64,000 nt of DNA from Dictyophora rubrovolvata (taxonomy: Eukaryota; Basidiomycota; Agaricomycetes; Phallales; Phallaceae): positions 1,178,001-1,242,000 of the forward strand of contig CP114118.1 of assembly GCA_029959195.1 (NCBI GenBank), read 5' to 3'. The notes under the pieces were generated by a model, which worked only from the letters and a program-made list of their open reading frames with translations, made no database searches and was not told where the DNA came from. A program made the translations under genes and the position numbers. Below are positions 5,152 through 63,356 of this stretch, one piece after another (position 1 is the first letter of the stretch; every line of letters starts with the position of its first letter).

Positions 5152-7644
5152 ATGCTCAAGTCGGATTTTCACCCCAATGACTACGAGAAGAGGGCCCCTT
5201 CCCCCGACTCAGCCAGTCTCTCCGACCTCAACAAACATGGCGTCCCTTTGGACGATCTCGCCTTCGTAAAACGGACAATGTATTCTTCTTGATAATAATT
5301 TTCCAAATCTTTACCTGACCGGAATCCCCTGTCTCTTTCTCTTTCCCCCCCCCCCTTAGACGAAAAGTCGATCTACGTTTACTCCCAATCCTGGGTAGCA
5401 TATACGCTTTCAGGTCAGTTCTCTTTCTGTTTAGCTTGTTCCTCTGATTCAAGCCTTTTCGCTCGTTTGCCTGTAGCTTGATAGATAGAAATAACCTATC
5501 AAATGCTTTTATATCAGGCGCAAGTGTCGAGATTGTACGTTGAACACACGTTTACCTGGTCTGTCTGTCTGCTCCAACGCTGTTCTCTAGCGACTCGGTG
5601 CCGGAAACCACTATTCATTAGCTACCTTGGTCTTCTTTATACCATATATCATTCTAGGCATGTATTTCTTTATCTATTCGCAAGAATACAACAATATTAA
5701 CTCCTCTCTGCTAGAGATCCCCTCCAATATAGTCTTCCGTCGAGTAGGCGCTTCCAAGTTTCTCGGAACGATAGGCTTGTCAGCCTTTTCATAACCCCTT
5801 CTCTTGATTTTATTTTTTCCTCACAATTTTTTTTTTTGTTTTTCGCTAGACTCTGGGGCGTAATCATGATTTCAATGGGCTTTGTCAAGACATGGAACCA
5901 GATGGCTGCCTTGCGTGGTTTATTGGGTATTCTTGAGGCAAGTACTCGTGCTTTTTTTTTCGCTTTAGTCACTGTGTTTTCTCAAACGCATTTTTTCAGG
6001 CAGGATTCTTCCCCGCTTGCGTATGGTTAATATCCTGCTGGTACACCAGGATTGAAGTTCAAACCCGTTTAGCTGCTTTCTATCTTGTGTACGCATCCAT
6101 AAAGCGCCATTTTTATTTGATTTTCTCTTAGCCTTTTTTTTTTTATAAAACAACAAAAAAATCTTTTAACTTTAGCTCCGTCGTTGTTGGTGCATTCTCT
6201 AGCAGTCTAGCTTTTGGCCTAAGTCAGATTAAAGCCGATCATCTCAGTGGCTGGCGATGGATCCTCGTAGGCCGAATTCCCTTGAGACCGAAATTCGCGA
6301 TCACTCACAGATCATATAGATCATCGAAGGTATCATCACATGTGCCTTGAGTCTGTTGGGCTTCTTCGGTGCGTACGATGGCCCTTTCTTAGTCACTCCT
6401 GTGTCGGTCTCAAATAGCACACAGCAATTGTCGATTTTCCCGATAAGAACAAATTTTTAACGTACGAAGAGACGCAGCTCGTCAAGGAGCGTGTAGAGCG
6501 TGATCGTGCAGATACCGAGCACGATGCTCTGACCATCGCAAAATGTTTGCATTATGCCTGCGATCTAAAATTATATAGTATGGTCATTTCCCCATATTTT
6601 CACCGGGACCAGTCTCATCTTTTCGGCAGGTTTTTCTTTGGGGTATTTGTGCACGACTCTGTACGTCTTCACTCCTCTCGACGGTCTACTTACGCCCTGA
6701 GTTTTCCATTTACCTCATTAACAGCGCCACGTATGCATATGGTTATTTCACACCGATTATTTTGGTTGGCATGGGCTTCTCGGTCAAGAACGCTCAGCTT
6801 CTGGTATATGCGCTTTGGTTATATATAAGCTCTCTCTGCATTCTCATTTCCTTTTTGTAGATCGCGCCCACTGGTTTATGTGCATGCTTAATTGCCCTTC
6901 TCATTAGCAGATTATCTGATCGAACTGGCCTGCGCGGTCCTTTTGTGTGTATAATTATATTTATATCTCTTTCTAATAAATTATTAATTTTCATGTATTT
7001 TTTAGATCATATTGCAAGCTTGCATGGCCATAACCGGACTTTCAATGACAGCTTTCCATCCGAAGAATGCTGTAGGACTTTAACTATGCTTAAAATGTTT
7101 GAGTTTTAATCTCTCTTGTTCAAAACTTTAGGTCCGTTTTGCTGGCTGTTTTATTGGTCTGGCTGGTGCTCAGGGCAATATTCCTTCGCTGCTTGCATAC
7201 GTGAGGCTAGCCCATCGTTTATTAAAGACTAATATATAAAAGGTGGTTGATAGCAATCTAATAACATTCGGAGACAAAGTAAACGAGCCTTCGCTACTGC
7301 AATGCAAGTCGCATTCGGAGGAATCGGTAAGTATCTTCTGCTTTTTTATTTATTTTTGAATTTATTATCGACACCGTTGTCACAAGGCGGTATCATGGCA
7401 TCACTCGGTTCGTGAATCCCATTTAATCAGCATTGTGTTTGAATCCGCTGAATTTGCATTTTCAGCATATCGTCAACAAGATTCTCCCAGATATCGCTTG
7501 GGTATCACGATTACAATCGCATTCCAAGGCCTTCTCATTCTTCTAGTTGTGCTGAATTCGACGTGGTTCATCTATCGTAACAACCAAGTTAGAAAAGGTG
7601 GTAAACCCATTGAAGGTCATTCCGGGTTTTTATACACTTTGTGA
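5152..7644 (+). CDS. MFS transporter, DAL5/allantoate permease-like (anion:cation symporter family)
   Basis: A heavily split gene (about 17 exons) encoding roughly 500 residues with 12 predicted TM segments. Family landmarks: RRKVDLRLLPILGSIYAFS at TM1, IDRNNLSNA after TM1, GLLGILEAGFFPACVW at TM4, WRWILIIEG at TM6, SDRTGLRGPF in TM9-10, and a C-terminal YRQQDSPRYRLG segment typical of the DAL5/ACS group (allantoate, nicotinate, pantothenate, biotin precursors). The substrate is not decidable. The start was chosen because it leads in frame through an acidic N-terminus into VKRTIRRKVD after a 5280-5359 intron. Two introns require or favour GC donors: 5658-5714 (GCATGT, restores IILEIPSN) and 5938-5999 (GCAAGT, restores LEAGFFP; a GT alternative would give LEARFFP). 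All other introns placed are GT-AG. Confidence 0.82.
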
Positions 7645-7924
7645 AAATAGATTTTCATATATGTTTTTCCCATGTGAGGCACGTTACTTGGTATGATTAC
7701 AATTGGTTGATTTATACCATGATGATATACATATAATATATATGAATAAATGTACCTGATTTATAACGTCAAACATCATCGTATGCATTCATACATTTTG
7801 AATGCTCGTGATTTGAAGGGGAATGGATCGTCACCGTCGACAGGTGGTGTCCTGAAAGAAAGAAGAATTAAAAAGTTAGCAAGCACCAAGAAAAGAATAT
7901 ATGCATTCAAAGATATATATTTAT

Positions 7925-8746
7925 TTACTCTAATGGCCCAAACACTTTCATACCACGTATGTGTGTATCCTTTCCATTCATATGGTTTGCTACGACGACA
8001 ACCTGAAGCACGTAGGCATGAAGAGGTTTCCTGACGAGTAAATAATAAGCGAAAATGAGTCAATACCAGGTTGATTGATTGATTTACACTCCTCCATCCT
8101 CTGAGGGTTCCATGTAGACGTCAAACAACAACCATCCATCGGGCTGTTGAAATGTGACGAGACGGACGTCTTGCAAATCGCTCAAGCCAGTTCCGGCACG
8201 AATACATAGCGTCGCTGGCGTATATGAGTCATCGCATTGATAACTGAGGTGCAATGCAATTTTCTGGAAAAGAAGGAAAGAAGATATCGTGGACCCAGAC
8301 TGGAATTTAAAAACAAGAAATAGTATTGGTTTACCTGTATGGCGACTTTCTTGCTGAATTGGACAGTTATAAAATGAGGTTGAGGACCATCCGAACTGTA
8401 TTGATTCGAGACAAAGGATCTCCGTGAGACACACTAAAGGCGAAGAAGACAGTGACTGACTGCCAGAAAGTATCTGGATCATCGTCCCTCAAGCATTCGA
8501 TTCCAAATCCAAACTTGTGCGAAGAAACAGTCCATTTCGCTAAATGGCCAATGTCTGGATAGCTGGTCGCTAGTTTAGAAAGCCCTGGAAGAAAGACAGT
8601 GAAAGTAAGATCGAATGGTCGCAATACACGGAGGTGTAAAGAGAAGAGAAAAGTCGAATTCCTTCAAAAAAAAAAAAAAAGGAAAATCGAAGAAATTATT
8701 CTGGTGACAATTTCGATTTACCTTTGTTCGGGAGAACATCTGCCAT
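7925..8746 (-). CDS. APC10: Anaphase-promoting complex subunit 10 (Doc1)
   Basis: Five exons encode about 170 residues, close to the usual APC10 size, made up almost entirely of the DOC domain. Recognisable elements in order: SYPDIGHLAKWTVSS, GIECLRDDDPDTFW, then SDGPQPHFITVQFSKKV, KIALHLSYQCDDSYTPATL, the GWLLFDV strand, and the C-terminal VVVVANHMNGKDTHIRGMKV, which is the signature of this family. APC10 helps the APC/C recognise D-box substrates for ubiquitination during mitotic exit. The last exon is missed if the stop at 8084-8086 is taken at face value: a GTAAAT donor just before it joins to 8020 and downstream. The normally conserved WQSDG becomes WHSDG across the second intron. APC10 homologues often end in Ile-Arg-like tails that bind APC3; here the end is FGPLE. 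Confidence 0.9.
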
Positions 8747-9502
8747 TCTGCAAGGTATATATGGTTAGTACTTGGCACACGTACTAAGCGGCGGTTTCCG
8801 AGGGATCATTGCACCGTATTACACTCTCACTAATTTTCTTGTCCAGAGACAAGACCTCCATTTACAAGTACAATATAACTGCGGAAAATGGTTTTGGGTT
8901 TTGAATCGCCATGTGCGTGCGTTTTTATCCTTTTCTCGTTTCACGAGTTCTTTTTTTCTTTGCTTGATTATACTCTATTATTTCGTCCTGCCTCGCGAGC
9001 TTCGACTGGTATCGCTCATTGATTATACCCCTAAATTCGTCCCTCCTTTCAAGCTCTTTACTCGCTCACTTTTAAGCCAGGAACTTGTGGGAAGTACAAG
9101 TAACTATTGACGTTGTTATCATTTCCTCATTAGGCACATATCCCTCGCTTTCAGGTACCCTCATCCAAAGCCATTGCTAGAAGATTATTCAAGAGAATTC
9201 TCGATATCAGTGTTCAACTGGTATCGACGCATACATTTGGTTCGGTTCGTACAAGTGAAAAACTGCAAACACTCGAAACATCAAAATTAGCAGTTAGAAC
9301 TACTTTACCATTGGTCGGTCTTTTAACCCTATGCGCTTAGATGGCTCGCATTACACTGATTTTTGTGCCATACTCTTTCTAGCGTATATGAATGTTACAA
9401 AGAAGGGAAATGACATGCGTAATAGCTTGTGAGGGAAAGAAAGAAAGAAAGAAAAGCAAAAACAAGACGACAAGCAACCCAGAGGGGTTTAATTATACAC
9501 GC
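8747..9502. other. Intergenic region, nothing recognised
   Basis: Between the APC10 start and the UBX gene end, this 755-bp region holds the APC10 promoter and the UBX 3' end. A 112-codon open frame on the plus strand (8772-9110) is hydrophobic and lysine-poor but shows no family motif or intron structure, so it is not called. Short purine-rich GAAA repeats lie near 9436-9456. Confidence 0.35.
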
Positions 9503-10587
9503 TCACTTTTCTGTTCAGATTTATTCAACGTCAATATATATATACGGATAAACTATTTCTGGATAAAGGTCAAAATACACTCACTTCCCATCTTGAACCA
9601 CTTTGGGACTGATTTACTATTACTGGATTTCGTCTTTGGAGCGACTGGGATATCTTTCCCCGGTTCATCTGGCTTAGTGGCATGATCGCCAGCCATGGGG
9701 GACAGGGGAAGATCCTGTGCTTGAGCCAAGATAGACTCCATGAGCGGGGCTCGTAAATTAGGGTCTAGCAGATCTCATTAACCAGCAGCCCGCTAATTGA
9801 GTGATGAGTAAACGACTATTATTGACATACATACCGTTCAAGGACCCATCTAAGAATGACAGCATAAGAACGGATGAGGGAGCCAGTTGTAACTCGTAAA
9901 GTGTCAAATCTCGGACTTTGAGATCGGATACTTTGAGCTCCCTGCGTGGGGGGGTTTGGTCTTATATGTCATGTCAGAGTGGACATCGCCGGGAAAGGAT
10001 AGAAAGGACGTGCATAATACAAACTTGATGGGTTTAACGTCATCTCTCAAACAGCTTCTCACAAATGCGTACACCGAGCGTATCTTGTCAGTAGAAGGAA
10101 AGGCACGCTCGAGCTGGGTTCTGTCCGGAAACTTGACACGTATCCGAGTCTGCGAGCTGGATAGTATCACTTTGCTAATATATTGGCTAACTTCAATCGA
10201 CAGGAGCGCTCACCGTCGGGTATTTTTCCCGCCTCGCTTTGAGTTCTCTCTCTCGAACTTCTCTCGTCTTCAAAGGAGCGTTGACCAGAGCTTCCCGAGT
10301 ACGCACTTGAGCCTCGTAAGATGCCTTCAATTCACCAATAGTTGGTTCGAAATATGAATCAGGAAGATCTGCGCGGGAATGCGATTAGATTTGCGTTTCG
10401 AAACTCAAGATGGGGCTGGGGCCTCAATGTTCTTACCTGGAATCGGGGGGGAGGCTGTTCCATTTAAAGGGTTCCAAACTTTAATACCTGCGGTGGAAAT
10501 TTCTTCCCCTGCCAATACATCCTTAGCCTTTCCTTGGTTATTATCTTTGCTTTCGGAAGTCTCCTTCGGATTTCCTTCCGATGACAT
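9503..10587 (-). CDS. TUG/ASPSCR1-like UBX-domain protein (p97/Cdc48 cofactor)
   Basis: Residues ~50-100 match the TUG/ASPSCR1 linker (DLPDSYFEPTIGELKA, then a basic helix ending in REKYP), followed by a UBX domain (RIRVKFPDRTQLERAFP, FVRSCL, FVLYQTPPRREL, LYELQLAPSSVLMLSF) and a C-terminal tail ending PKWFKMGKK. Such proteins bind Cdc48/p97 and remodel its hexamers. Exon 1 runs 10587-10437. The intron 9961-10013 appears to start with GC (GCACGT); it restores the invariant UBX segment YQTPPRR, whereas the only in-frame GT solution gives FVLCTELK and loses it. The last short exon (ending at 9503) is inferred. The protein, about 265 residues, is much shorter than animal TUG and lacks the N-terminal ubiquitin-like domain. 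It is divergent from the PITH gene with 97 bp between start codons. Confidence 0.8.
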
Positions 10588-10684
10588 CGCAGCGGTGTGA
10601 CGGATGTGGTTGCAGTAACTTGAACCCCGCCGCCACCGTGATTTTTGGGGGGGGACCACTCAGACTCTGCTGTGCTTGCTCAAC
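10588..10684. promoter_or_regulatory. Compact bidirectional promoter, UBX gene / PITH gene
   Basis: Only 97 bp lie between the two divergent start codons (10587 minus, 10685 plus). The segment includes a GC-rich part and a run of nine G. Both transcripts' 5' ends must fall here or overlap the opposite gene. Confidence 0.45.
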
Positions 10685-11582
10685 ATGTCACACAACCACG
10701 ACCACAATTGTGGTCATGGCCACGATCATGACCATGACGGAGATTCAGGCCCTGGCTCGTCGGACAACCTGTACCAATACATCGACCATCCAAATGTGCG
10801 CATCTTGAATGCCACCGTAGACGAATCTGCCAAAATTCTCAAACCTTGGGATCAACGATTGGACGAGACGGTGGTACTTCATTCACCCCCTCGGTCTTGT
10901 TGTCTGAACTAATTTGGTATTTATATCCGGAGTATGTGGAATCAGACGCAGATGATCAGCTGTAAGCTCGGTGCAGCTCGACATCATTCTGCTCGCATTG
11001 TGCGCTTACTCACAGTGTAGGATCATCCGTGTTCCTTTCACGGGAAACGTAAAGCTGCGCTCTATCCTCCTCAAAACTGGTCCGGGAGATCAGACACCCA
11101 GTAAGGTTTCCCTCGTAGGTCTTCGCTGTCAACGTGTCACTGCGGCTAGAATTTTGACGGCAGAATTCACACTTAGTTCGTTAATCATGACCATCTCGAT
11201 TTTGACGACGTTCTCGACGTTCAGCCTGTGCAAGAATGTGTTATTGTACAAAGCCGTGAAGTAGGAGATTATGCGGTCAGGTAGTAGATTACAATTGTTC
11301 TTTCTATCCAATCTTTGATGCTGACCGACTCTGTTTGAAAGACCTGCTAAATTTTCCAACGTCTCTTCTGTGACCTTGTTCTTTCCTTCTTCTCAGGGTG
11401 CCGATTCCATCAGATTGTATTACCTGGGATTTCTGGGATCGTTCTTCGAGCGCAAAGACAGCCCCACTGTCATTGTCTACGAGGCCCAGGCAAATCCTGC
11501 TGATCATCCAAAAATACAAGGAACTGAGCCCTTCCCCGCACATATGGGACTAGGTAATAGCAGGGACGGAGGCGCATACTAG
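10685..11582 (+). CDS. PITH-domain (DUF1000, thioredoxin-like C-terminal) protein
   Basis: About 220 residues in five exons. The N-terminus is His/Asp-rich (SHNHDHNCGHGHDHDHD, a possible metal-binding segment), followed by a complete PITH domain: YQYIDHPNVRILNATVDE, YVESDADDQLIIRVPFTG, VKLRSILLK, SLFVNHDHLDFDDV, AKFSNVSSVTLFFP, and YYLGFLGSFFERKDSP. PITH domains occur in the proteasome-interacting thioredoxin TXNL1 and in stand-alone PITHD1, which this resembles because there is no thioredoxin domain. In TXNL1 this domain docks on the 26S proteasome; that role here is inference. The third intron is best placed with donor GTAGGT after a Ser-Leu codon pair, giving the conserved SLFVN. Confidence 0.88.
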
Positions 11583-11694
11583 CCATATCATATCATAATT
11601 TTTCGATTGATTGTATATGTAAACCTAAAAAGAAAATTGTGAATCATTACATACACACTACGTTACGTTACATAAATATTTAGTAAATCAACGA

Positions 11695-14838: not shown

Positions 14839-14977
14839 GAATTACAAACGTATAATTGATAATTCTCCCAAAACCTGAGCCTTGTTCTCGCCGGAGCGGG
14901 GGCCGATATGTCAGTCAGGCTCCTGACCCAAGTCTGACTCATCAATTGACACAATTTTTTGTTTTTCTGCGGCATCG

Positions 14978-16271: not shown

Positions 16272-16343
16272 GATACCATACATTCATATTCATATAAATG
16301 CGTCCAACGGGTAATTTTTTCAATTAATATATATCCTATATAT

Positions 16344-17889: not shown

Positions 17890-17986
17890 GCGTAGTTAGG
17901 TAGTACTTAAACGATTAAAAAGGAAAGGGCGGGCCGGCTTTCTCTTTCAGGCGGGGGTTTTTAGGTATTCGGTATAAAAAGAATCC

Positions 17987-18059
17987 TGCCTCCTAGCCGA
18001 TTCGAACGACTGACCTCGTCATTACTAGTGACGCGCTCTACCAACTGAGCCAAGGAGGC
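17987..18059 (-). tRNA. tRNA-Thr (anticodon AGT)
   Basis: The minus strand folds as a full cloverleaf of 73 nt: acceptor stem GCCTCCT paired with AGGAGGC, D arm GGCTCAGTTGGTAGAGC (A box), anticodon stem CGTCA/TGACG with loop CTAGTAA giving anticodon AGT (threonine, A34 read as inosine), and T arm with GTTCGAATC (B box). No intron. Just downstream on the minus strand is a T run (positions 17976-17980) that fits a Pol III terminator. Confidence 0.95.
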
Positions 18060-20987: not shown

Positions 20988-22395
20988 ATGAATCCGCGAG
21001 TTTTTTTGGATTTTGCCATAGATGGCACTCCAATAGGAAGGTATCTATTCAGAAATAATTTTTGGAATACTCTTGTTGCCGCAGTTCAAGCCTTTGTTTG
21101 TTAGAGCCATAATTGAGCTGTACGCCGACAGTGTACCAAAAACTGCAGAGAAGTACAATTTAGATATTTCTACTTGGAACCGATAGGCAATCTCTCTTAT
21201 ACCCGTTTTATGCATAGTTTTCGAACACTCTGCACGGGCGAGAAAGGCTTGTCTCCCAAATCTCAGGTTCCGCTTTACTACAAAAATTCCATTATCCACC
21301 GGTCTATACCGAGTTTCATGATTCAGGGAGGAGGAATGCTTGTTTTGACTCATTTTAATATTTGATAGCTGCTGATCGTTCTTCAACAGATTTCACCAAG
21401 CGTAATGGCTTAGGTGGTGAATCCATTTATGGTGCTCCTTTTCAGGACGAAGATCTTTCGCGACCAGTCGATGCCGAAGGGTGAGTGGATCTTATTTTCT
21501 CATGGCAAGCAACGCTCTCAAATGCTCTCTTCTTTCTTCTTGGTGAAAAAAAAACAGTCTTATTGTCATGGCGAACCGTGGGCCTAACACGTACGCTATT
21601 TTCTTCTCGGTAACTTGCAACATCGTGTTCTAACCATGTCTAACAGCAATGGCTCCCAATTCTTTATAACCTTACGACCATGTCCTCATTTGAATGGGAA
21701 GCACGTAGTATTTGGGCGGGTTATTCGCGGTTATGACGACGTCATTAAACAGATAACAGAAGTACCCACCGACGAGAGAGACCGTCCCGAACGACCCGTC
21801 GTCATAATTAATTGTGGTGAGCTCGAGCGTCGTAAAGTCGACCATCCGCCACAGCAGGGACGTGAAGTTCAACGGGCAGATAGCGTATCTTCGGGAGATG
21901 ACGAAAGCGGGGACGATCGTGGACGGAAGGAATACAAGCACAAGCGAAAGAGATACCACTCCTCTCGATCAAGGTCTCCGGACCGTCCCGAAGGAACTCG
22001 AGGGATGCATCGCAGATACCACGAATCGCCTAAGAAGAGTAGCCGTAAGTCCAAAGACAAAGACAAAGACAAAGACAAAGACAAAAAAAGAAAGCGTGAA
22101 CGTACAAGTACAAGTTCACTCCCTATTACCAGAAAAGAAACCGAAGAAGAGTATGATGCTCGTCTGGAAAGAGAAGAAAAGGAAAGGCTACAAGTTCTTA
22201 GAAAGACGGAGCTTGCAAAACTTCAGGAACAGCTTGTGCGCGAAAACGAAGAAAAAAAGCGACACAATACAAAAGCTGGTCCCATCAATTATAAAGGCGA
22301 GAGTTGACGTTTGCGTTCATCATGACACGTTCATTTCACGCTGTTTTTTACTAGGTCGTGGAAGAATGAAGTACATAGATCCTGAGACGGTCTAA
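20988..22395 (+). CDS. RS-tailed nuclear cyclophilin (peptidyl-prolyl isomerase, PPIG/CypRS-like)
   Basis: About 370 residues: a cyclophilin domain ([83 protein letters not shown]) followed by an Arg/Ser/Lys-rich tail with a KD repeat (22045-22085), and a KGRG-type C-terminal motif. Proteins of this shape act in the spliceosome. The join from QGG to DFTK has no usable GT donor: the intron 21334-21389 seems to start with GA (GAATGC) and end with AG. The final intron is best read with a GC donor (22297-22354), giving YKGRGRMKY; a GT donor four bases later would insert Glu-Ser. If the GA intron is not removed, translation stops after the QGG residues and the gene would be broken. Confidence 0.8.
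21334..21389 (+). other. Putative GA-AG intron in the cyclophilin gene
   Basis: The exon ends ...CAG GGA GGA G and the next resumes AT TTC ACC, giving the family-invariant QGGDFTK. The 56-bp insert starts GAATGC and ends CAACAG; the only nearby GT (CTT|GTTTTG) leaves the wrong phase for both available acceptors, and retention meets a stop. Confidence 0.6.
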
Positions 22396-31749: not shown

Positions 31750-33693
31750 ATGTTTTCACCCATAAGTTACACGAGAAAAGCCTCAAGATTGTTGCAAGTG
31801 AGTCACTCAGTCTTTTTGTAGCAATAAATATGGTATGTCTCAGATTTTGGAAATGCGCATTTACTAGGTCGGTAGAGCTTCCGTTCGTGTTTTTTCCTCA
31901 AAGTTTGCAAGAAATCGTTCTTTGGCAGCTATGGCTACCTCTTCCTCAACGTCGACCACGTTGCCAATTCCAGGAATTCATCGTGACCCAAGTGCAGTCT
32001 ATGGTAGACCTCAGCCATGCGAACCTCAGAGCATCTTAAAACGAAACGGTAACAGCATAGAATTTCCTCAAACTAGATCATTAAGTCCCCCTCGCATACA
32101 TTACGATGAAAAGCGTGTTACCATCGAATGGGACGACACTACTCGGTCAAAGTTGTATGTGATGTCTATTTCCTTTAGTCCTTGCGTTGTCTTTTTTTTT
32201 CCTTGGGTATTATTAAATCAGGCGTTTTTTAGCCATAATATCTGGCTCAGAGACCATTGCCGATGCTCGGAATGTTTTCATGCTATTACTAAACAACGTT
32301 TGGCGGAAACCTTCGACGTAAGTATTAATTATATTACATCTCGATCTGATTTCGGGCAGGGGTCTAAATTGAATTCAAGATACTAGAAAATATTCACCTT
32401 CAAGAGGCTAAATCCACCGACTCCGGTTTGGAGATTATATGGGCGGGAAGGGTACCCCACCAATCTATATACCCTTGGTCTTGGCTACAGCGGAACTCTT
32501 ATGACCCCCCTTTCCGGCCAAAACATAAATGTAGACAGTACGTGCCAGGCAGCAAGTCATACGTTTGAAGATTTTAATTTATGAGTGGTACAGAAAATTC
32601 CTTTGGGGGGCTAGCATACAGGCAGATCCTCCTACTGTCCGATATTCCGAAGTTATGACCGATGAAATGGCTCTCTACAAATGGCTGCAGAAAATGGAAA
32701 GTACTCATGCTTTTATTTTATCCAGAAATTAACACTACATTAGGAATGTTTTGGCTTCTGTTTCGTCACGGGTGTTCCCGCCACTCCAGAAGACACGGAA
32801 CGATTGGCACTTCGAATTGGTCGCATTCGAGAAACGCATTGTATTTGTTGACATTTATCTCTCAATTTTTTTTTCTCATCCCCTTTCTACTTTTAGACGG
32901 CGGTTTATGGGATTTCACCGCGGACCTGAGGCACGGAGATACTGCATATACAAACATAGCTCTGGGCGCGCATACCGATACAACCTATTTTGTATGCCGA
33001 TCCCCGAAACGTTCCTTGCTTTTTTTTACTTATCACATTTTTCATCCCAAATAGATTGATCCCTGCGGTTTACAAATTTTCCATTTGCTCTCACATACGC
33101 AGGGGACCGGTGGTCAGACCCTTCTGGTCGATGGTTTTCATGTTGCATCCTTGCTGTCCACTCTCGAGCCTGAAAGCTACAAGATCCTATCGACCATTCC
33201 TGTGCCAACGCATTCGGCTGGTGCATCGGGTGGCTGTTCACAGACAATGACATACCTCTACCACCCGAAGCCCGAGGTGGGGTATCCCATCATAAATCTT
33301 GATCCAACCTCGGGAGAATTAGCCCAGGTGCGGTACAACAATACAGATAGAAGCGCAATGCATCATTTGAAGCCGGAAATCGTCGAAGCATGGTATAAAG
33401 CTGTGAAAACTTGGAATAAGCTATTGACTAGTCCGGATTCGGAATATTGGGTTCAGCTTTCTCCTGGCACTGCCGTCGGCAAGTCTCTCAAAATCACTTG
33501 AGTTTACATTTTATCTTATCATCACTCAGTGATTGATAATCACCGAGTTTTGCACGGTCGATCCGCATTTACAGGTGAACGAAGGATGTGTGGTGCATAC
33601 GTTGCCCAAGACGAACTCACATCCCGGTTAAATGTACTCAGATCTAAATTTGAAGGTTTGGACTCTGATTCAGTCTGGAATCCTGCCTTTTAA
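31750..33693 (+). CDS. Trimethyllysine / gamma-butyrobetaine dioxygenase (carnitine synthesis)
   Basis: Fe(II)/2-oxoglutarate oxygenase of the TMLH/BBOX family. The N-terminus (MFSPISYTRKASRLLQ, then VGRASVRVFSSKFARN) looks like a mitochondrial presequence. A zinc-binding N-terminal domain carries NIWLRDHCRCSECFH; the catalytic domain has GFCFVTGVP, ETHYGGLWDFTADL, the iron ligands in LGAHTDTTYF (HxD) and the distal histidine in DNHRVLHGR. About 440 residues, nine exons. Two introns are non-GT: 32697-32743 begins GA (GAAAGT) and joins WLQKM to ECFGFCF, matching family length exactly; 33479-33529 begins GC (GCAAGT) and joins PGTAV to VIDNHRV. TMLH versus BBOX cannot be separated by eye. Convergent with homoaconitase. 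Confidence 0.87.
32697..32743 (+). other. Putative GA-AG intron in the dioxygenase gene
   Basis: 47 bp, starting GAAAGT and ending CATTAG. The only GT nearby (GAAA|GTACTC) is phase 1 while every usable acceptor here leaves phase 0. Removal restores WLQKMECFGFCFVTG with the spacing expected for the family. Confidence 0.58.
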
Positions 33694-38976: not shown

Positions 38977-39790
38977 ATGAGTGATGACGAGCAGCATAAT
39001 CAGGCTTTCGAGCAAGCTACTTCAGGTGCTTCGCACACCTTTCCTATGCAGGTACGTATATCGTTCATGCCACGATACGAACTTCCCGTCTGATTTTGTC
39101 TCTCGAGTGCTCTGCATTGCGGAAGAAGTATGTTTATCACTGGTTGATATTCCTTTAATTGACCATCTTTAGCGGACACGTAATGATTAAAGGGAGGCCC
39201 TGCAAAATTGTTGATATGTCCACTTCTAAAACTGGTAAACACGGACACGCCAAAGTCCATCTTGTCGCTATTGACGTAGGTCTCGACCCCAGTGTGATCT
39301 TTATTTATTTTTTTTATATTCTTTACTTTCAGATTTTCACTGGAAAAAAATTGGTACGGTTTGATTTTTAGTTACGTTGTTTCAAATTCAATCGATCAAT
39401 GTCATGCACAGGAGGAAATCTGTCCTTCAACTCACAATTTAGACGTTCCCAATGTCTCTCGTACTGAATATCAACTGGCGAGTGTTTATGATTCATCTTG
39501 TTCCCACTTGATTCTTATCTTTCTGATCTTATAGGTCAATATCGACGATGGTTATTTGAATCTTATGTCTACTGACGGAAACCCCAAGGATGATGTCAAA
39601 GTTCCCGAAGGTGAACTTGGACAGCAAATTCAGGCTGACTTTGATGCAGGCAAAGATCTGCATGTCTCAATTCTTGCAGCCATAGGTGAAGAAGCTGCCA
39701 TATCGTAGGTTCTCCTCTCTTGGGGTTTATGAATCCATGTTAATTCGGACCACTCCATGTAGTTGCAAGGAGGCTCCTAAGGGCACTTAG
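38977..39790 (+). CDS. Translation factor eIF5A (hypusine-containing)
   Basis: Seven exons give about 157 residues. The hypusine loop [12 protein letters not shown] is intact, with GRPCKIVDM before it and [17 protein letters not shown] after. The second exon is a 20-nt microexon (39108-39127) coding CSALRKN, demanded by the invariant family sequence. The intron 39478-39534 starts with GC (GCGAGT): its removal yields [15 protein letters not shown], the family consensus, whereas a GTTTAT donor six bases on would insert Ala-Ser. The final exon encodes CKEAPKGT, the usual C-terminus. eIF5A relieves ribosome stalling at difficult peptide bonds and aids termination. Confidence 0.95.
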
Positions 39791-42328: not shown

Positions 42329-45300
42329 TTAATTTGCCCATTCTTGCCACAAAGCATTAGTCTCATCTATGGGAAGAGATGTTAACGGGCCGTCTAGTGG
42401 CGCAGTCTCGATAAGTTCGATAACCTCTTCCTCAATTCCTTGTCGATCATTTTGGTCGGAACGCGTTGCTATCAACAAGGGCATCCCAGGGTGGGATTGT
42501 AGCAGTCGAAAATTATTTCCTTCAATGACTTGCATTAATCTCCCTGTCCCAGTGTTCCGGACCTCGATGAAATTATGACTAAACAAAAGAAGATGTGGAC
42601 CACGTTCGGCGTAAGATTCCGCCGTTGTTTCCCAACGGACATAACCAGCTTTGCGAGTCGGTACAGCATATTTTGTTACATAGCATCCGAATTCTAAATG
42701 TTTTAATAGATTAAGCAGAATTAGATGGTTTATAAATATAAGACATACCATGATAGATAACAATGAGTTCATCTGGACCTGATTTGACAATCCCAAGCGG
42801 ACGGGAGCTTTCAGTCTTAGCTTTCAATATAGAGATGCCGATAGATTCGTCGGCATTAGTGAAGTCCGGGATTTGAACCGGAGTTTGAGTCGAAATCCTT
42901 GATATGTTTATGAACAAATTTTCTTCTAAAAATTCTGCACGTACTTGGTAGGATCAACAACTACCATTAAGCGTTCAGTAGATATGGCGATCGTCTTGGC
43001 CAATAACGTCACATCGAAGGGGTCCTTGGGTACATAAAAGGGCTGTTAAAAATCAATAAACCGGACTTCAAAAGATTAGACAAATCATACTTCTCCAAAT
43101 GGCCGGAAGGTAGGCGTGCCACTTCCGCTTTGGATTCTGCGCAACACGCCTTGAGGTGAATCCAAGACGGCTTCTAGTGCGTTTATTGTAACACTTATAA
43201 ATCCTTTACTTGCATAAACAACTATAACAGGAACGTATGAAAAGGATGTAGCGTTTGTAAGATTAGGGACCTACGCATTGTTCGATCCGCGACTACACCA
43301 ACGCGGAAAAACAGGATTGATCCCCCACGCTCTGCTTTCGCCAATCGTTCAGCCGACTGTTCAAGGACGCTTGCCGACGATTTATTCTCCGAGACCCGTG
43401 CAATAATATCAAGTGAATAAGCGTTCAACTGATCATCGTGTAGGACTACCAGCTTGCGTATTAACGGCATAGCTACGATGCTTTTGGAGAATGGTGAAGT
43501 CAACACTTTAGCGTAGCCTTGGGGGTTACGTTAAGATTTACGATCCTGATTGTATAACATAAAATAGGCATACTTCCATGTCCTCGAACGCCTGCATAGA
43601 TACCTGTTGATGTAGCTGCAGCAAAATAACTTCTCCCGTTTGCGGCTAAACGAGAATAAACTACTAAATAAAGGCTCCGCATGTAATAATACTCACAAAA
43701 GAGCGTGGCGCTAGTGATTTCTCCCGTAAACATTCTCGTAGAAGTCGCAGGAACCCTGGGTGTTCTAATTCGGAAAAAATGTTTCTCAACAGCATCCATC
43801 CCAAACCACTTTGATACTCATGTCAGATATATCTATCAAATGCAGAACGTTCCGCTTACTTTATTGGAGTCCATTACAATTTTCCTAATATTCACGGCTT
43901 CTTCTAACACCTCTTTCCACTTCGCACGTGTTTCCTCGGAAGTGGCATACAGTGTGTATTTGCGAGCAGGAGATGATGCATGGTATAGGATAAAAGGGTA
44001 CATGGGTTTAGAGGGCTTAATAAAGGAGTGGAATAGACCGCCACTTTCATTCCGTTCCTCACGGCGACTGTCAACTGGTCCATTGAAAGCACCAAGTCGG
44101 ATATATTCGACGGGAAGAGGCTGCAAAATTAATCAAGCCTGGTATATATTGAAGAAGGATGTGTAAATACCCGGGACACTACTACTTTCGCTCCAGACGC
44201 TGGATCAGGGTGGGTAATCAAGACTAGTTAGACACAAATCAGTTAAATGGCTCAAAAATTAGGACGGGCTTTCGTATTTACGATAATTATCAAGCAAGGC
44301 AACTTCCAAGTCCAGCCATCTACTCCAATTATCAGCCCTTTGCTTCCTCGCAAGCTGCCCGATATGAACAAGACTGCGGGTCTCGTTATATAGGTCCATG
44401 TCCTGTTTACCATATGACAGCTTTGAACTCGGGAGTTGAGAATCAAAACTCACAATGATTTCCCCTCGTCGAAATTCTAAGCTCTCGCATAATGCATAAT
44501 ATTTGACCTTGCTTTCGCTAGCTGCAATGCCGGGTTGAGTGTTCTTCACAAATCTGTCTAGAACATCGAGTAGGATAGGTATAGTCTCTAAATCAGGATA
44601 ATCAGCTTGTGAGCTCAAGTTAGAACTAGCTGAGTCTCCAAAAAGCTTTTCCGTTCGTTTTTTTACTTCTTCCAGTTGTAAAGAGAGCCGGGGAAGGCGG
44701 GTCACAGGCCTTGCGATAAAGGTGATTAGATCCCGTTTGCCTAAGCGAGGATCCTGGGAACATAATTCAAGAAATTTGCGATATCGTGAGTTGTTCTTCA
44801 GTTCACGCCGGTGAACTGATTCGGCGACCGGGTAGTGCTAATGAGTGCTTATTCCAGTAGTTCTACACAGATAGAATTAAAGCATGCCTTGATATATGCA
44901 TCATAGTCCTCCTTAAACTTGAAAATAGCTCAACACGGTAGAATAAACATAAGACGGAAGACTAATCAACAAGCGAGATACCAAAATACTTACTGTCTAG
45001 AATTATGTGTCCGATACTGATAATGATCGGATGTTGTTCTATTTGCAAGGAAAACAAGGCGTTAACCATGCATTTATGGTGAGCGAGAATATCAGTTAGG
45101 TTGAAAAACACTTCGTTGATAAAAGCATCAGTTTTCCCTTCCTTAATTACAGGTGGCATGGTAGATTCTAAACCACCAATAAATACCTGCATGAGACAAT
45201 TTAAAGAGAATTTTCCACCATGGAAAATCACTTACCTCTTGCACAAGTTCCAGATCACGTACATAATTCCGTTCACCATTAATTAATTCGAATATGGCAC

Positions 45301-46204: not shown

Positions 46205-48926
46205 ATGGAAACTGAGTGAGTTTACATTCACGTCTCAACCAAGCGTAACAAGTAATAGCTCAGAGATTAAAGTTCTCTAATTTTAGACGAAACAAGACAT
46301 ACTCATAGCCAATCTGTTCAAGCCGAATTCACGGTCTGTACACGCAAATTCCGCAAATTCGCTGCTAGCTTTGCTAATACTTCGTTGTTTTCTTTCAAAG
46401 TTACGATCTGTATTTGTAGGACTTGTCGTCGGCTGTCTCCTTTGCTTTACGAACTTGTATTTTGGTTTACAGACAGGTAAGCTTACATCCTTATATTTCG
46501 AAGAGTCGCTGGCACAATAATAAGTCATCCAGGATGGATTAGCATGTAGGGCTCACAAGCTAGCTTAGGTCCACCTTCTGAAAAACAAGCTTCACCCCTT
46601 CTATAGGATGTCACTGCAGTCTGCCTTGATAGGCTATCTCGTTTCCCTATTTTTCCGAGAGCCATTAACTCCACAAGAAAACGTGGTGATACAAACTACG
46701 GCTGTAGCAACTGGTGCGCAAATACGCTAAAGTATCGGTTGGATTTCGCTAAGAGTTCTTAAGGTACTATGCCATTGGCAGCCGGATTTGTTGGCATTAT
46801 TCCCGCCCTGGGTCTGCTCGACAGCAGTCAAGATGGTGTCTCTGCTTTGAAACTTTCGTGGATTCATGCAGTAGGGTGGTCGTTAGCTGTGGCCTTTTTC
46901 GGGTAATGTGCAACCTTTTCCCCAGATTTTTCCATTCATCATTGGCCTTGAAGCGTCCTACTCGCACCCCCAATCCGAAAACAAGTTGTGCGGGATATCT
47001 CCTTCTATTTGCCTCAATAGCCCGTTATATATATTTTCTTTTAGATTATTAAAGAACAACTCGCATTTCCATCAGGAACCGCTACTGCTCAACTTATTTC
47101 GGTCCTACACCAGAAACCCACCAATTTCCTCAAAAATCGCCGCGGAAATCAAGCCTCAAACACAGTCTCTTCTCGAGGCGATTATCAAAGTATTCCATCA
47201 CAGGATGCTGAAACTTCACAGCTTTTGCATGATCATGAGGTACCCGATATTTCACATGTTCGAAAGCATAAAGAAGTTCAGCATAGTTGGGGCGCTCTGG
47301 GATGGAGTTTTATTGCTTCAGCAGCAATGACAGCAAGTCTTAGCTTCGCTAAGTTAAAATTCATCTCCTAATTCATCTTTTATCCAGCTAGCTGCATACT
47401 TCTTCCCAGTAGTGTTCGCTGTGCCGCTTTTCGGCCATTATTTAGCCAAGGAGTGGTTGTGGTATTTTACGCCGAGCTTATCATACGTAGGCCAAGGTTG
47501 GTTCTCTACCTCGGATGTCAGATATGTTTTTTAATTCGGTGCAGGTATAATCATGGGTTTCCCTACGACTTTGAGCATGAGCCTGGTGAGTTATTATCGG
47601 TTTCGAGGTTCCATGTCCCAAATGATTAGTGGCATATTAGGGGATGGTAGTTGGTTGGGCCATTTTATCCCCCATCTCCAAACATGCTGGCTGGGCTCCT
47701 GGTCCTGTCGGCGACATGTCGACAGGTGCACGGGGCTGGATTTTATGGATATCCTTGGCCATTATGTGCGCCGACAGTCTGGTGTCTCTCCTTCCAGTCG
47801 TATATGGAGTCATTATCAAGTTCGCGAATCGTCATAAGAGGAATGATCTCAGTTTGGATAGTGATGAAGATCTAGAAACTCCCGATAGGCTTGTTCCTGG
47901 AAAATGGGTGATTTGGGGTTCCTTAGCTTCTATTGTCTTCGGGACATCGCTTGTGTGGTGGGTTTTTGGAAGCGAAGGTATAAAGCCCTGGGCTACAATT
48001 TTTGGTTATCTCCTCGGTAGTCTACTGAGCTTATTGGGGTGTGTTACTTGGCGAGTCTAGGGTTGACAAAAACATTGATTACTATGTAGAGTTCGTGCTT
48101 TGGGAGAAACGGACTTGAATCCGGTCAGTGGGCTAGGCAAAATTAGCCAGCTATTTTTTGCAGTCATTCAACCTGGCAATATCGTTGCAAACATCATTGC
48201 AGGGGGGGTCGCCGAGGCTGGTGCCCAGCAGTATGCCACCTCTTCCCGCAACTCGCTGATTTGACCTCACTATATAACATAGGGCCGGGGATCTTATGCA
48301 AGATCTAAAAACCGGACATCTTATCGGGGCCTCACCTCGAGCCCAATTCTATGGACAACTTCTCGGTTCGGGTTTATCTGTCTTCGTTACCGCAACTGCC
48401 TTTTCTTTATATCAACGAGCATATCCTATACCTGGTCCCAATTTTCCTGCGCCTACAGCTTATGTCTGGCTAAGTCTTGCCCGTCTTCTACGTAAGTTGC
48501 CTGAGCTCTCAAGAAGATATTTGTTTTGACCTGTCTACATTAGGAGATCAACAGCTACCCGAGAAGAGCGGTCTCTTCATGATTTTGTTTGCAGTAGCCG
48601 CTGCGTTCAACGTCTCCTTTAAAATCCGCGCTGTGGAACATGACCGTTGGTGGGCTATCTGGGTCCCGTCTGGAATTGCCTTTGCAGTGGGATTTTTGAA
48701 CACGCCATCCTTTTCGTTAGCTAGACTCGTTGGTGGGATAGTCGAGTATGCTTACAATAAAAGGTATCCAGGTGAAGGGAAAAATACCATCCTACTTATT
48801 ATCGTTGCCAGTGGGTTTGTATTGGGAGAGGGCACATTCAGTATTCTGTCACTTGTTTTGAAAATGATGCACGTTGGTGTGGCCAGCTGTTGGGGTTGTG
48901 CTGAAGGCTCGTGTCCAGGGTGTTGA
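46205..48926 (+). CDS. OPT-family oligopeptide/metal-chelate transporter
   Basis: About 680 residues, twelve exons, many TM segments. Landmarks of the fungal OPT group: EFTLRSVFVGLVVGCLLCFT, NLYFGLQTGWISMMSLQSA, TTAVATGTMPLAAGFVGIIP, QLAFPSGTATAQLISVLH, AAYFFPVVFAVPLFGHYLA, GWAILSPISKHAGWAPGPVG, TGARGWILWISLAIM, GETDLNPVSGLGKISQL and GGVAEAGAQQAGDLMQDLKT. These proteins move oligopeptides, glutathione or metal-siderophore complexes. The first exon (from 46205) and its junction are the least certain part. The intron 47333-47387 starts GCAAGT and joins AMT to LAAYFFP; a GT option (GTCTTA with a later acceptor) is also in frame. The C-terminus carries an unusual cysteine cluster (CWGCAEGSCPGC). 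Confidence 0.87.
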
Positions 48927-50650: not shown

Positions 50651-50791
50651 AAACTTGTTCTCTGTGTCATTGTCATTGCCACCCATGTCCTTATATACAA
50701 ACACTAGTATATCGTTAATGTACACTATACCATTTATACTTGCGCAAAGTCTAAAAGCACAGCCGTGACATTGAATACTCTTTCATAGGTA

Positions 50792-55676: not shown

Positions 55677-55930
55677 CCTCTCCAGGCAAGATGCGGAATC
55701 TATAAGGCCGAGACTGGGCTGATAACGTAGGGATGGGCACGCAGTTGCTCCTTCTCAGTGATTAATATTCCCGCAATTATTTTTATAATAACTCGATTCT
55801 AACAGGCAGGCTTTGTTTCAGAAAATGAAAACAAACAAGAATGTTTCGCCACTCCTTTCAATAGATGACGAGGAAGGAGTGTGGGAGTCAAGGCGTCTAA
55901 TTCTTTACTAGCTCAGTTACAATTTTTGGG

Positions 55931-56787: not shown

Positions 56788-56862
56788 AAAGGTCACGCGT
56801 CACGCCACCCAGGCTGACGCGTCTCTTCCAAAGATTTCAAACTTCTGACTGCTTAACATATA

Positions 56863-58462
<1,600 letters not shown>

Positions 58463-58695
58463 TTCTCTTGTTTTCGAGGATTTCTGTATATCAAGTAATA
58501 AATCACGATTCTTCACTGCTCATAGACGTTGGCTCAGGTGACAGAAACGTGCTATCTTGATATTTTTTCATCGTTCATGAGCCGTACAGGCTTTGTAAAT
58601 TAGCTATTCAAAGCATCAAAGTACATATGCATGGCTCAAGATAAATATGATTGGGAGAAGGATAATGCCGGACTTGAGGTAAGCTAGACGCGCCT

Positions 58696-59293
58696 CTCAC
58701 CGACCGGCAGCCGCGACCTCAGCAGCTTGGACGGCTGGGTTGACCTTCTTACCGTCCTTGTAGCGCACTCGTGGAGGCGGGGCACGGTTTCGGCGACCTT
58801 CTCTTGAGCGAACACGAACGACTACAAGATGTGGGTTAATCAGAAGGGGCACAGAATCCGAAACTACGAACTGTGGGCATGGATAGCACACGATACGCAA
58901 TATACGATTTTGGTATACAGCTTTGGAATAGTGTATTCTAAAAGAAGGAAGAACGCAAATAAATGGATGGAATAATATATGTATAAAGATCATGCGTACC
59001 GGGATAAACACTAGCTTCATTGATATCTCGAACGGCAGCGCTTTCCACCATGTTGCGAACAGTAAATCGTTTGATGGCTTTATCTTTGGCAACACAGCGG
59101 GAACAGTTTGAACAGCGCATAAACTTGACATGGCCTCGGCCCTTTTTGTTACGGCCGTTATTCCGCCTTTTTTTAGTCTGAGAAAACACAATCGTCAGTA
59201 AAAGAGTCCTGTTACATCCAAGTGGACATGTGTGCATCCATTGGCACCGCCAGTGAAATATGCCCTTGAACGACCAGTAAATACACGTACCAT
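58696..59293 (-). CDS. RPS26: 40S ribosomal protein S26 (eS26)
   Basis: About 120 residues, four exons. [77 protein letters not shown] and the C-terminal [17 protein letters not shown] are all diagnostic, including the zinc cysteines CSNC and CVSC. The first exon is the start codon alone (ATG at 59291-59293), followed by a GTACGT intron, as is common for ribosomal protein genes. The other introns are GT-AG. Confidence 0.96.
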
Positions 59294-59418
59294 TACGGGA
59301 AAAGTGAGATGAGGGGGGAAAGAGTTGACTTGAGGATGAAACAGGCCGTTTGCTGACCTTGGTCGGTGCAAGTGTATACACACACAGTAGCACTTTGCCT
59401 GGTCAATATAGACGCCCG

Positions 59419-60110
59419 ATGATGATTAGGCGCGCATTCGGCCAGCCTTTCGCCTTCAGCTTGAGCGCCGAAAAGGGAAAGTACCGAGTCGGAGGTCTCC
59501 GACATGTAAAGTCACCCTGTTGGAGCACATACAAAACGGGGTTTTTCCGACAGAGGTAAGTATACTAATTAGATGACTGACATGTGTCCTTGCTACTCTA
59601 TCCAGATCTAGGAACTGAGTAACGCTACTAATGCAGGTTCGAATAAACCTTTCGGCCTCACAGCTTGAGCTGGGATTGCAAACCTAGGATATTTCCTGAG
59701 TTGCCGGAAGGCAAATTATGGTATGTATCACCGCACTGACATTGGCGACGATGCCAATTGGATGCGCTCGACAAATTCAAGTTGCCACGAACTCCTGGCG
59801 TACAAAAATCAATCGTCATGGCAAGAAGAGAACATACACACGCATTCGATGCACAACATTTTTGCGTTTGCGGAAATCAAAGGACGCCGTGAGATTTTTG
59901 CTGGAAATTTGCCGGGGCCCAACGGATGGGAATTTGCTTAAAAGATAACCAAGGTTCGTTACACCGTAAGTGGTATGCACTTCTCACAGGCTTGTATCTG
60001 CATGTACATATGATTATTATGTATTATGATTATTATTACGATCATATATATCTAGGTTCGCTTAAAGACCGTCAAGAGCCGTGGAAATGCCTAAGCCCCA
60101 TTCGCATGCT
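59419..60110 (+). CDS. Unrecognised small spliced gene
   Basis: Divergent from S26. It opens MMIRRAFGQPFAFSLSAEKG, which resembles a mitochondrial presequence, and can be spliced from a GTAAGT donor (about 59555) to an acceptor near 59664 giving CKPRIFPELPEGKLW. Past the next GTATGT donor (59720) the frame is unclear; an open 72-codon stretch ends at 59941, and a small downstream piece (60057 onwards) could be KVRYTVRLKTVKSRG. I could not assign a family. A mitochondrial ribosomal or assembly protein is a guess. The coordinates are approximate. Confidence 0.3.
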
Positions 60111-60295
60111 CACGCGACACCGACAATTAACCGCGCGTGACGGCGAATCCACGGTCAAGACGGCACGGACAACAAAGCCATGGTCTCGTGAATTGCGCTC
60201 AAGGCGATCTTGATTCTTCGGTCGGTTATAGTATGAATGTTATTTTTATAAGATTTTCTTTCTCTCGCTCGTACTCCACTCTCGTTCTTCCAGCA

Positions 60296-63200
60296 TGGAG
60301 TGGAACGCTGTCGTCGACCTCGTCAGCAGGCGTGAGCCCTGGTACAAGAACAGTGGTAAGCTTTCGTCTCCCTTTTTTACTTCTTGTTCTATTTCCTTCA
60401 ACTGCGAGTCTCCCAAACAAATAAACAATTATACAAACAAACGAAAACAATCCTGTTTTATTCGAGAGTAAACAGTAAATCATCCTTGGCACTAACTCAT
60501 CCCATATACAGGCTTAGTGGTCCTTAATTTATGTCTTTTACTCCCTCTGCTCACTGCCAGTATTAATGGCTACGATTCTTCTGTTGTCAATGGTATCTTT
60601 CTTACCTCGTTGCCCTGGAAGACAAGAGTGGTCTGGCTCATTATTATCTGATATTATTTATGTAGGTCTCCAGTTACTCCCAGACTGGCAGAAGTTCTTC
60701 CATTACCCAAATGGAACGGCCTTAGGTTATTGTCTCAATTCATTGTATAACTCTCGGTTTTCATTTCTTCTTCTATTTTTTTTTCATAACACTAGGCTTC
60801 GTCAATGCCGCTCAAGGCATCGGTTCCCTAATTGTTCGTTACTCACGCAGTGGTCTTCGCCCTCAACCTAACTTCGTTTCTTTCTTTTTCATGTTAGGCT
60901 ATCCCAATCGCCCCTTATGCGAGCGATGGCATCGGGCGTAAAAGAACCCTTTTATCTGGCTCTCTTGTCCTCGTCGGCGGAACTATTCTTCAAGTACTAT
61001 CACGCAATCTCACTCATTTCATCGCCGCCCGTACCATCAGTATGTTTAATCTTGAACCTGTGCCTTTCTTTTCATTTTTTTTTTTTCATTTTTAAAAAAA
61101 ATTCAGTTGGCTTTGGTCTTTGTTTTGCCACAAACGCAGCACCCTTGTTGATCACAGAATTAGCTTACCCTACGCAGGCATGTTCTACGGCGAACGTCTT
61201 TTTTGTTTCACCCTCATTGACATGTTTTCTCTCAGCGTGGTCCTATAACCGCTCTGTCAGTCACCAGTGGGCATCCTAGAGTTAAATACCTTCACTCACA
61301 CAAAAGTGCCCCGTTATTAGATACAATTCCTCGTGGTATGCGGGAAGTATCATTTGTATGTCCTCCTTATATCAGTAGTAAATTGTGTGATCGTAACCAG
61401 ATTCTATTCAATAGCTGCCTGGGCTACCTTCGCTGCATTCATAGGAAGCGGCGGATCGATATGGTCATGGAGGTAATAGTTGTCTTTTACTTTCCTTTTT
61501 GTTTACTTTCGCTTCATGTGGCGCTCACGCAAGACATTCCCTCGGTTCGAAAAAATTACATATAGAATACCCGTCATCGTCCAAGGAATAGGCTCCACGC
61601 TGCAATGTTGCCTCATTTGGTACACTATCATCCCTCTCATATCAAGCTTCAAATTAATGCCCCTGTACTCAGGTTTATTCCCGAAAGCCCCAGATGGCTT
61701 ATCTCGAAAGGGCGTGTAAGTTATCTCCATAACTTTATATCAACGGATTATAATGAATGATGTGTTTGGTTAACGTCAGGACATTGAAGCAATGCAAATC
61801 TTAGCGCGGTATCATGCGAATGGCGGACACATTCGAGATCCGCTTGTTGTCTTTGAATGGACCCGTGAGTCGAAAAACAAGGACTGAATTGTCATTAATA
61901 ATTCAAGTCATTCTCCTATTTTTGCACTTCCATGCATTGTTTTGACAGAAATCCGACATGCTCTTCAATTAGAGCGTGAGATCTCAAAAACAACCTCTTG
62001 GTTGACCTTGTTCAAGTCTCCGGGAAATAGGAAGCGTATGCGCATTATCCTAGCTATCGGATTATTCAGTCAATGGTCGGGAAATGGTCTTGTAAGAATG
62101 TTCCCTCAAACAAGTTTCACAGAATATGTCCGTCTGACATTGAATCATGAATAAGGTTTCATATTATATAAATCTCGTACTTGAGGCCATTGGAATCCAG
62201 GATACTCAGACGAAAATTTGGGTTAATGGTGTATTACAAGTCTGGAACTTGATTGTAGCTGCTGGTCAGTTATTCAAGGATAAAAAAAAATGTATTGATT
62301 TTGACGTCCTTATTTCACATAAAAATTTCATCTTCATAGGCGCATCACTTTTAGTCGAACGCGTGGGCCGAAGAGTATTATTTATTACCTCTAATGTGGG
62401 GATGCTCATCTGTTTGTCGCTCTTATCTTGTTTTTGTTTACCAAATCTCTCACGTACTATTCTATGTTTCTAGCCTTCGCTATGTGGACGCTCACCACGG
62501 CTTTATTCCAGACCCGACATGACGTTGTGGCTGCAAAAGCAACTATGGGAATTTTATTCGCCTTCTATCTCTTTTATGACATGGCATACACACCTATGCT
62601 CGTTGGTACGCAATGTTCTTCATTTCTATTGCCAAATAGTCCGGTCATTTCTTTTGTCTTAAGCTTATACCCTTGAAATCTTACCGTTCAGTATCCGTGC
62701 CAAGGGATTTTCTTTAATGGTTCGTGCCTCCCGTTTTGGTTTAAAGTACATTGCATATGATGTCACACTCGACTTTTATATTTTAGAACTTACTCGTTTG
62801 CGCTGCTTTGGCTTTTAACCAATTCGTTAACCCATGGGCATTGCAAACGCTCGGCTGGAAGTATGTGAGTACGTGCGATTTTTGTATACCTAAATTGTAT
62901 ATAACGCTACGGCAAGTATCTCGTTTACGATGGCTGGCTGATGTTTGAGCTATTGTTTGTCCTGCGGTATGTCATTGAGACAAAAGGTAGGCAGATTATT
63001 TTGGACCGTTCCGCAAACCAGACGATCTAGTTACTGGAACTTTTTTTTGCTTAGGTCGGACTCTTGAGGAAACCGCCACACTTTTTGATGGTACACAAGA
63101 AGGCATTGAGCTACACGAGCTCGGAACTATAGCGGCTACACAATCGCTACACTCTCTCAGGAACGAAGGCCTCATTTCGACAGCAGCCCATCCAACCTTT

Positions 63201-63356
63201 ACAGGGGCGACTTCTCGTTCAATTGATCTCAAACAAACAATAGATCACACCAGTGATTCTGATATGAAGAAAAATACACAATCTATTGATACTGATTCCC
63301 GAAGCCTTACAATTGATTTGTCTACTTGTGCGCCCTCCGGTGATAAAATACGATAG
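60296..63356 (+). CDS. MFS sugar transporter (hexose/lactose permease type)
   Basis: Roughly 540 residues, about eighteen exons. Sugar-porter landmarks: SINGYDSSVVNG in TM1, PIAPYASDGIGRKRTLLSG (loop 2-3 GR-K motif), AYPTQRGPITALYNSSWYAG, SWRIPVIVQGIGSTLQ, FIPESPRWLISKGR, GQWSGNG-type TM7 start, LLVERVGRRVLF, YTLEILPFSIRAKG and VIETKGRTLEE. A Ser/Thr-rich cytosolic tail follows. It is closest to the lactose-permease (Lac12-like) branch; the sugar cannot be told. The intron 61178-61235 starts with GC (GCATGT): it joins YPTQ to RGPITALY with no GT option. The start at 60296 (MEWNAVVDLV) is the nearest ATG; an upstream exon is possible. Confidence 0.87.

Follow-up and report, generated by a model that had tools for sequence, protein, structure and literature searches.

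The window considered here is a stretch of 64,000 nucleotides (nt) from the mushroom Dictyophora rubrovolvata (Basidiomycota; Phallales), positions 1,178,001 to 1,242,000 of contig CP114118.1 (C2:1178001-1242000 in our numbering) in a genome assembly of 28,239,528 bases in 11 contigs. It has a G+C content of 44% and contains, among others, genes for a TMLH-like dioxygenase, a cyclophilin, Rpt2, eIF5A, a UBX/TUG-like protein, a RhoGEF and several transporters, in which some introns appear to begin with GC or GA. An earlier note, made from the letters of the window, had proposed that base +2 of the donor is relaxed in this lineage (GN-AG splicing) and that this points to altered donor recognition by U1 or U6. 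Our analyses indicate that these are probably ordinary U2-type introns, with C at +2 in about 4-5% of cases and A in rare ones, that is, a raised level of GC-AG introns together with rare GA-AG introns.

Candidate introns with GC and GA donors in the window

Introns are short in this genome, with a median length of 57 nt for the 434 GT introns of ≤90 nt called by the gene finder. Candidate junctions were assessed by a profile test, which gives the bits lost if only GT donors are allowed within 60 nt, and by a reading-frame test, in which in-frame GT-AG alternatives were sought within 30 nt of the claimed junction. The TMLH profile was built from 120 listed homologs, without the gene's own splicing, and was aligned to the DNA with introns allowed; the profiles for Rpt2, eIF5A, and cyclophilin consisted of 1, 2, and 4 solved-structure chains, respectively. 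The candidates in these four genes are as follows (a slash marks the start of the intron; offsets of rivals are given for donor/acceptor):

32697..32743, + strand: GA-AG intron, TMLH-like dioxygenase; ATG/GAAAGT..TTAG, 47 nt, TTAAC close to the 3' end; profile 141.3 bits over GT-AG
33479..33529, + strand: GC-AG intron, TMLH-like dioxygenase; TCG/GCAAGT, 51 nt; profile 95.0 bits over GT-AG; no in-frame alternative
58129..58180, + strand: GC-AG intron, Rpt2; CCG/GCAAGC, 52 nt; profile 44.3 bits over GT-AG
57523..57578, + strand: GC-AG intron, Rpt2; AAG/GCAAGT, 56 nt; only 4.0 bits over a GT-AG rival at +4/+4
39478..39534, + strand: GC-AG intron, eIF5A; CTG/GCGAGT, 57 nt; profile 16.0 bits over a GT rival
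21334..21389, + strand: GA-AG intron, cyclophilin; GAG/GAATGC..ACAG, 56 nt; 17.8 bits better than any GT-AG path

The score of the TMLH profile against the DNA rose from 526.95 with GT-AG introns only to 672.28 with GT or GC donors and to 764.35 with any GN donor. There is no in-frame GT-AG alternative within 30 nt of the GA intron at 32697, and the length across its junction (32697-32743) is identical in 118 of the 120 homologs; we regard this predicted GA-AG intron as confirmed, its reading being forced by homology. The remaining five introns in the conserved region of the gene are GT, and the spliced product is full length and has 89% identity to a database protein. A further non-GT intron at 31974, in the unconserved N-terminus, carries 0.1 bits, and a GC intron placed at 32552 by the gene finder is actually GT by homology.

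In cyclophilin, the favored reading of the intron at 21334 is as a putative GA-AG intron, with retention of the QGGDF motif, which is present in all four chains used. The GT rival in eIF5A would insert two residues, AS. Together, the TMLH, Rpt2, eIF5A, and cyclophilin genes (7, 5, 5, and 5 introns, the first Rpt2 intron being taken from the gene model) have four GC and two GA introns among 22, a proportion that is biased by the choice of genes and provides no genome estimate.

The other candidates in the window are in genes to which solved structures or the reading frame were applied:

61178..61235, + strand: GC-AG intron, sugar transporter; CAG/GCATGT, 58 nt; across the junction, the spliced product aligns without a gap to a solved-structure glucose transporter chain
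9961..10013, - strand: GC-AG intron, UBX/TUG-like protein; TAT/GCACGT, 53 nt; junction aligns ungapped to solved-structure TUG chains
5658..5714, + strand: GC-AG intron, DAL5-like transporter; TAG/GCATGT, 57 nt; reading frame only
5938..5999, + strand: GC-AG intron, DAL5-like transporter; GAG/GCAAGT, 62 nt; reading frame; GT-AG rival at +4/+4
44838..44887, - strand: GC-AG intron, RhoGEF; AAG/GCATGC, 50 nt; gene-finder reading frame; one GT rival at +19/+22

The single in-frame GT-AG alternative within 30 nt of the DAL5-like intron at 5658 loses residues, and the product at 5938 reads EAGFFP via GC and EARFFP via GT. The DAL5-like protein had no match among solved-structure sequences, and the RhoGEF had no solved-structure match at 1e-9. 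A second GC intron called by the gene finder in the sugar transporter, at 61712, is actually GT (CGT/GTAAGT).

Seven of the ten GC-AG introns claimed in the earlier note were thus supported (three by profile, two by alignment to solved structures, and two by reading frame only), and two have a near-equal GT-AG rival. The claim for the OPT transporter (47348-47387) fell, as that intron would be 40 nt long and a 55-nt GTCTTA..AG intron keeps the frame and reads better. The note had also listed three GA-AG introns, those in TMLH and cyclophilin discussed above and one in an Alba protein; the last has an ordinary GTAAGC donor, with a 66-nt intron and an open frame, and a GA donor is unneeded.

Donor usage in bulk sequence and in additional genes

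The bulk donor estimate was made on 294 kb, about 1% of the genome, with a semi-Markov gene finder that was self-trained on the genome. In the main run, the canonical bases at +1, +2, -2, and -1 all started at 97%, introns were limited to ≤100 nt, and ten rounds were conducted. The 524 AG-ending introns comprised 477 GT, 25 GC (4.8%), 8 GA, 7 AT, and 6 CT, with no GG, while the full set of 546 introns also held 6 GT-AA, 5 GT-AT, and fewer of other classes. Within the window there were 141 GT, 9 GC, 3 GA, 1 CT, 1 CC, and 1 AT (n = 156 AG-ending introns), and outside it 336 GT, 16 GC, 6 AT, 5 GA, and 5 CT (n = 368). The final percentages were G 96.9, A 1.6, C 1.4, and T 0.1 at +1; T 92.9, C 5.4, A 1.6, and G 0.1 at +2; and, for the acceptor, A 98.2 at -2 and G 97.3 at -1. 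The share of A at +2 equals that of A at +1. The GC excess above noise is real in bulk, while GA is at noise level and undetectable in bulk.

Training without the window yielded 24 GC-AG introns of 383, vs. 12 GT-AT, 9 AT-AG, 9 GT-TG, and 3 GA-AG. An earlier run that allowed introns of ≤200 nt ended at 5.8% C and 3.1% A at +2. With the same length limit, 97.6-99.6% T at +2 was recovered from simulated GT-only genomes, and 4.1-7.8% C and 0.1-3.1% A from simulated genomes with 6% GC and 1% GA, all of these genomes being cleaner than real sequence. A run with +2 left free (C 12.6%, A 6.0%, G 2.1%) was discarded as an estimate because freeing another column leaves 10% non-G at +1, with corresponding shares of 16% at -1 and 25% at -2. 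Scanning the window for motifs, with CTRAY as the branch site, was also set aside, as GT donors were not separable from background.

In a second test, a model trained strictly on GT-AG was allowed one extra base at a time, with nine decoy classes at +1, -2, and -1. Above 5 nats there were 9 GC sites, 1 GA site, 4 GG sites, and 0 to 3 sites in each decoy class. When the limit was set at 2 nats, 15 of 27 GC sites, 4 of 20 GA sites, 3 of 11 GG sites, and 4 of 38 decoys at +1 had GT at +5 and +6. The gene-finder GC introns (22, compared with 434 GT introns) have a stronger consensus in the rest of the donor, in part a product of the method: G at -1 (0.64 vs. 0.46), purine at +3 (1.00 vs. 0.81), A at +4 (0.68 vs. 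0.43), and G at +5 (0.91 vs. 0.74). Their median length is 56 nt and that of the GT introns 57 nt.

Three genes that had not been picked in the earlier note were also analyzed. In the Rpt1 model (L014), the stretch aligning to solved structures contains 10 introns; beta-COP (L025) was modeled with 21, two of them hand-corrected, and all of these donors are GT. A GA intron called by the gene finder in beta-COP is wrong, as a GTACGT donor fits the protein, and a 22-residue insertion in the model proved to be an unremoved GTACGT intron. Alignment of a profile to the ISWI gene (L023), picked partly for holding a GC candidate, with any GN donor permitted, gave 22 introns, of which 19 are GT. The other three are a GA intron at 9199 (7.8 bits, in a weakly conserved part), a tie between GC and GT at 8179 (1.6 bits), and a GG donor at 6237 (1.5 bits), in reality a GT donor placed 3 nt off. 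Of the eight GA introns called by the gene finder, two are supported (32697 and 21334) besides the incorrect one in beta-COP, and the remaining five (L015, L016, L020, L023, and window position 22299) are gene-finder calls only.

The GC donors of Rpt2 57523, DAL5-like 5938, and ISWI 8179 share a GT-AG alternative with both ends at +4 nt and equal protein length. Both donors of each tandem could possibly be used.

The idea of a relaxed +2 base holds to the extent that C is tolerated there more often than usual, as seen from single-gene homology and the bulk estimate. As a general rule, however, GN-AG splicing is not supported, given the GA count within the noise classes, the lack of GG-AG introns among the 524, and the GT-only donors of Rpt1 and beta-COP.

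Splicing RNAs and explanations for the GC and GA donors

Genome-wide searches identified four copies of the U6 small nuclear RNA (L001-L004), all with the same 116-nt match (Rfam model 105):

C10:915018-915133 (+): U6
C10:915370-915485 (-): U6
C7:1872940-1873055: U6
C4:453455-453570: U6

The two copies on C10 are on opposite strands less than 500 bases apart. No U1 gene was recognized genome-wide by RF00003 (best 17.8 bits) or RF00488; U6 was easily found. Patterns for the U1 loop and for its 5' end, the base facing +2 being left free, gave 63 plus 39 sites that were read, none of them U1-like. U1C was not found, the single zf-U1 match sitting in a 362-residue frame that we take to be a WBP4-like protein.

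The explanation we consider likely is that these are ordinary U2-type introns. Standard U1 and U6 would pair with the donor at -1 and from +3 to +6; where those pairs are good, the wrong base at +2 would be tolerated, and T-to-C, and rarely T-to-A, changes there could then persist. In their remaining donor bases the GC introns match the U1 complement more closely than the GT introns do, in line with tolerance of a single mismatch by an unchanged U1, although method selection is partly responsible. The reading frames, the homology, the GC excess, and the intact U6 box are seen in the sequence itself; we infer that the listed GC and GA sites are used in splicing, that U1 is standard, and that tolerance, not a new factor, is the cause.

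Several results weigh against this explanation. Training on the window only (96 introns) gave 0 GC-AG and 4 GA-AG introns, and each half of the remaining sequence, trained alone, gave 3 GC-AG introns (out of 105 and 119), a frequency that other classes matched; we take these sets to be too small for training, and alone they give no support to a GC excess. A donor poor at +2 must score high elsewhere to be picked, and the stronger GC consensus is partly built in. Homology overturns at least one of the 25 GC introns in the bulk set (32552), GC and GT tie at ISWI 8179, and most of the set are gene-finder calls only, while the bulk run misses the supported DAL5-like and UBX GC introns. Finally, no U1 gene was recognized, and the junctions are predicted from DNA sequence.

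A change in donor recognition (through additional U1 genes or a variant U1, U1C, or Prp8), with only the G at +1 required and GA a regular class, is in our opinion unlikely. It would fit the homology-forced and the favored GA introns, the failure of two Rfam models and the patterns to recognize U1, and the 3.1% A at +2 in training with introns of ≤200 nt, but with introns of ≤100 nt A at +2 falls to the level seen at +1, the single GA site above 5 nats lies within the range of the decoy classes, and there are no homology-tested GG donors. The ACAGAGA box is intact in all four U6 copies, contrary to the altered U6 of the earlier note. Overall, an altered U1 or U6 is not supported: the intact box contradicts a change there in U6, and with no U1 gene recognized the searches speak neither for nor against a change in U1. 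It also seems improbable that the donor needs only G at +1 and good pairing at +3 to +6, perhaps via a diverged U1, with GC a regular class at about 5% and GA a small yet genuine class at about 1%, which would be some 30 times the 0.038% of Ganoderma lingzhi (PMC11590231).

We give little credence to the proposal that many of the GC and GA readings are wrong, with a nearby GT and shifted acceptor used or the intron kept, and the proteins differing slightly from their relatives. The +4/+4 rivals in Rpt2, DAL5-like, and ISWI and the reassignment of OPT and Alba to GT are in line with such misreading, yet denying a non-GT donor to Rpt2 58129 and the two TMLH introns costs 44 to 141 bits, and the bulk GC excess persists outside the window. 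Conversion of GT to GC or GA by assembly or sequencing errors is very improbable, for although a single assembly is behind the calls, errors would be expected with equal frequency at +1, at +2, and at the acceptor, while the observed excess is of C at +2, and the TMLH product remains full length and close to a database protein.

Comparison with other lineages

GC-AG introns comprise 1.0% of introns over 130 fungal genomes (PMC7072748), 1.72% in Coriolopsis trogii (PMC13395996), and 1.85% in Ganoderma lingzhi, where hand curation with RNA raised the value from 1.26% and GA-AG introns are 0.038% (PMC11590231). The introns described here resemble the GC-AG introns of the fungal major spliceosome in their GC donor, AG acceptor, usual length, and stronger remaining donor, but differ in level, about 4.8% by gene finder vs. 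1.0-1.85% in the cited fungi (PMC7072748, PMC11590231, PMC13395996). As for U2-type GC-AG introns, a GC donor and AG acceptor are present at homology-fixed exon ends and the rest of the donor is stronger, the latter partly built into the method. We assign them to a known class, GC-AG, at a raised level; the very rare GA-AG class has one firm member here and one likely one.

The copepod Eurytemora affinis likewise has GA-AG introns in conserved genes, with consensus elsewhere in the donor, but its GA/GG donors comprise 10-12% of introns and AG is obligate before the intron (PMC5714493). Against roughly 10% GA plus GG in that species, the 8 GA and 0 GG of 524 here represent no bulk GA excess, and while the cyclophilin intron (GAG/GA) complies with the AG rule, the TMLH intron (ATG/GA), with TG before it, does not. 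Larvacean tunicates also depart from the GT donor, with many GA-AG introns in Oikopleura dioica (PMC7072748), but a departure of such size is not seen here. Some algae share a raised proportion of GC-AG introns; however, their shares are 39.6% and 22.2%, and the genomes have a G+C content of 66-70% (PMC3033335), well above that of our window.

No report of non-GT introns in Phallales was found in the open literature. If about 5% of introns start with GC, many multi-intron genes of such mushrooms would be expected to carry at least one, and gene finders that expect GT would break the genes that bear them. A homology-forced GA-AG intron in a conserved enzyme provides a clean test case of the tolerance of the spliceosome for a wrong +2 base.

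Two further features of the window are a homoaconitase, with 79% identity to its nearest named match, from the stinkhorn Clathrus columnatus, 81% to another database protein, and 71% to other Agaricomycetes such as Hysterangium, among the best 120 of 8000 matches, and a tRNA-Thr (anticodon AGT) at 17987-18059 on the - strand, the sole Rfam match in the window at gathering score. Outside the window, at L020 (- strand, intron at 4514), two neighboring paralogs, presumably exo-glucanase-like genes, have an intron before the same WHSDNP motif, with a GCAAGT donor in one and GTAAGT in the other, which suggests that GC donors arise through point changes in existing introns.
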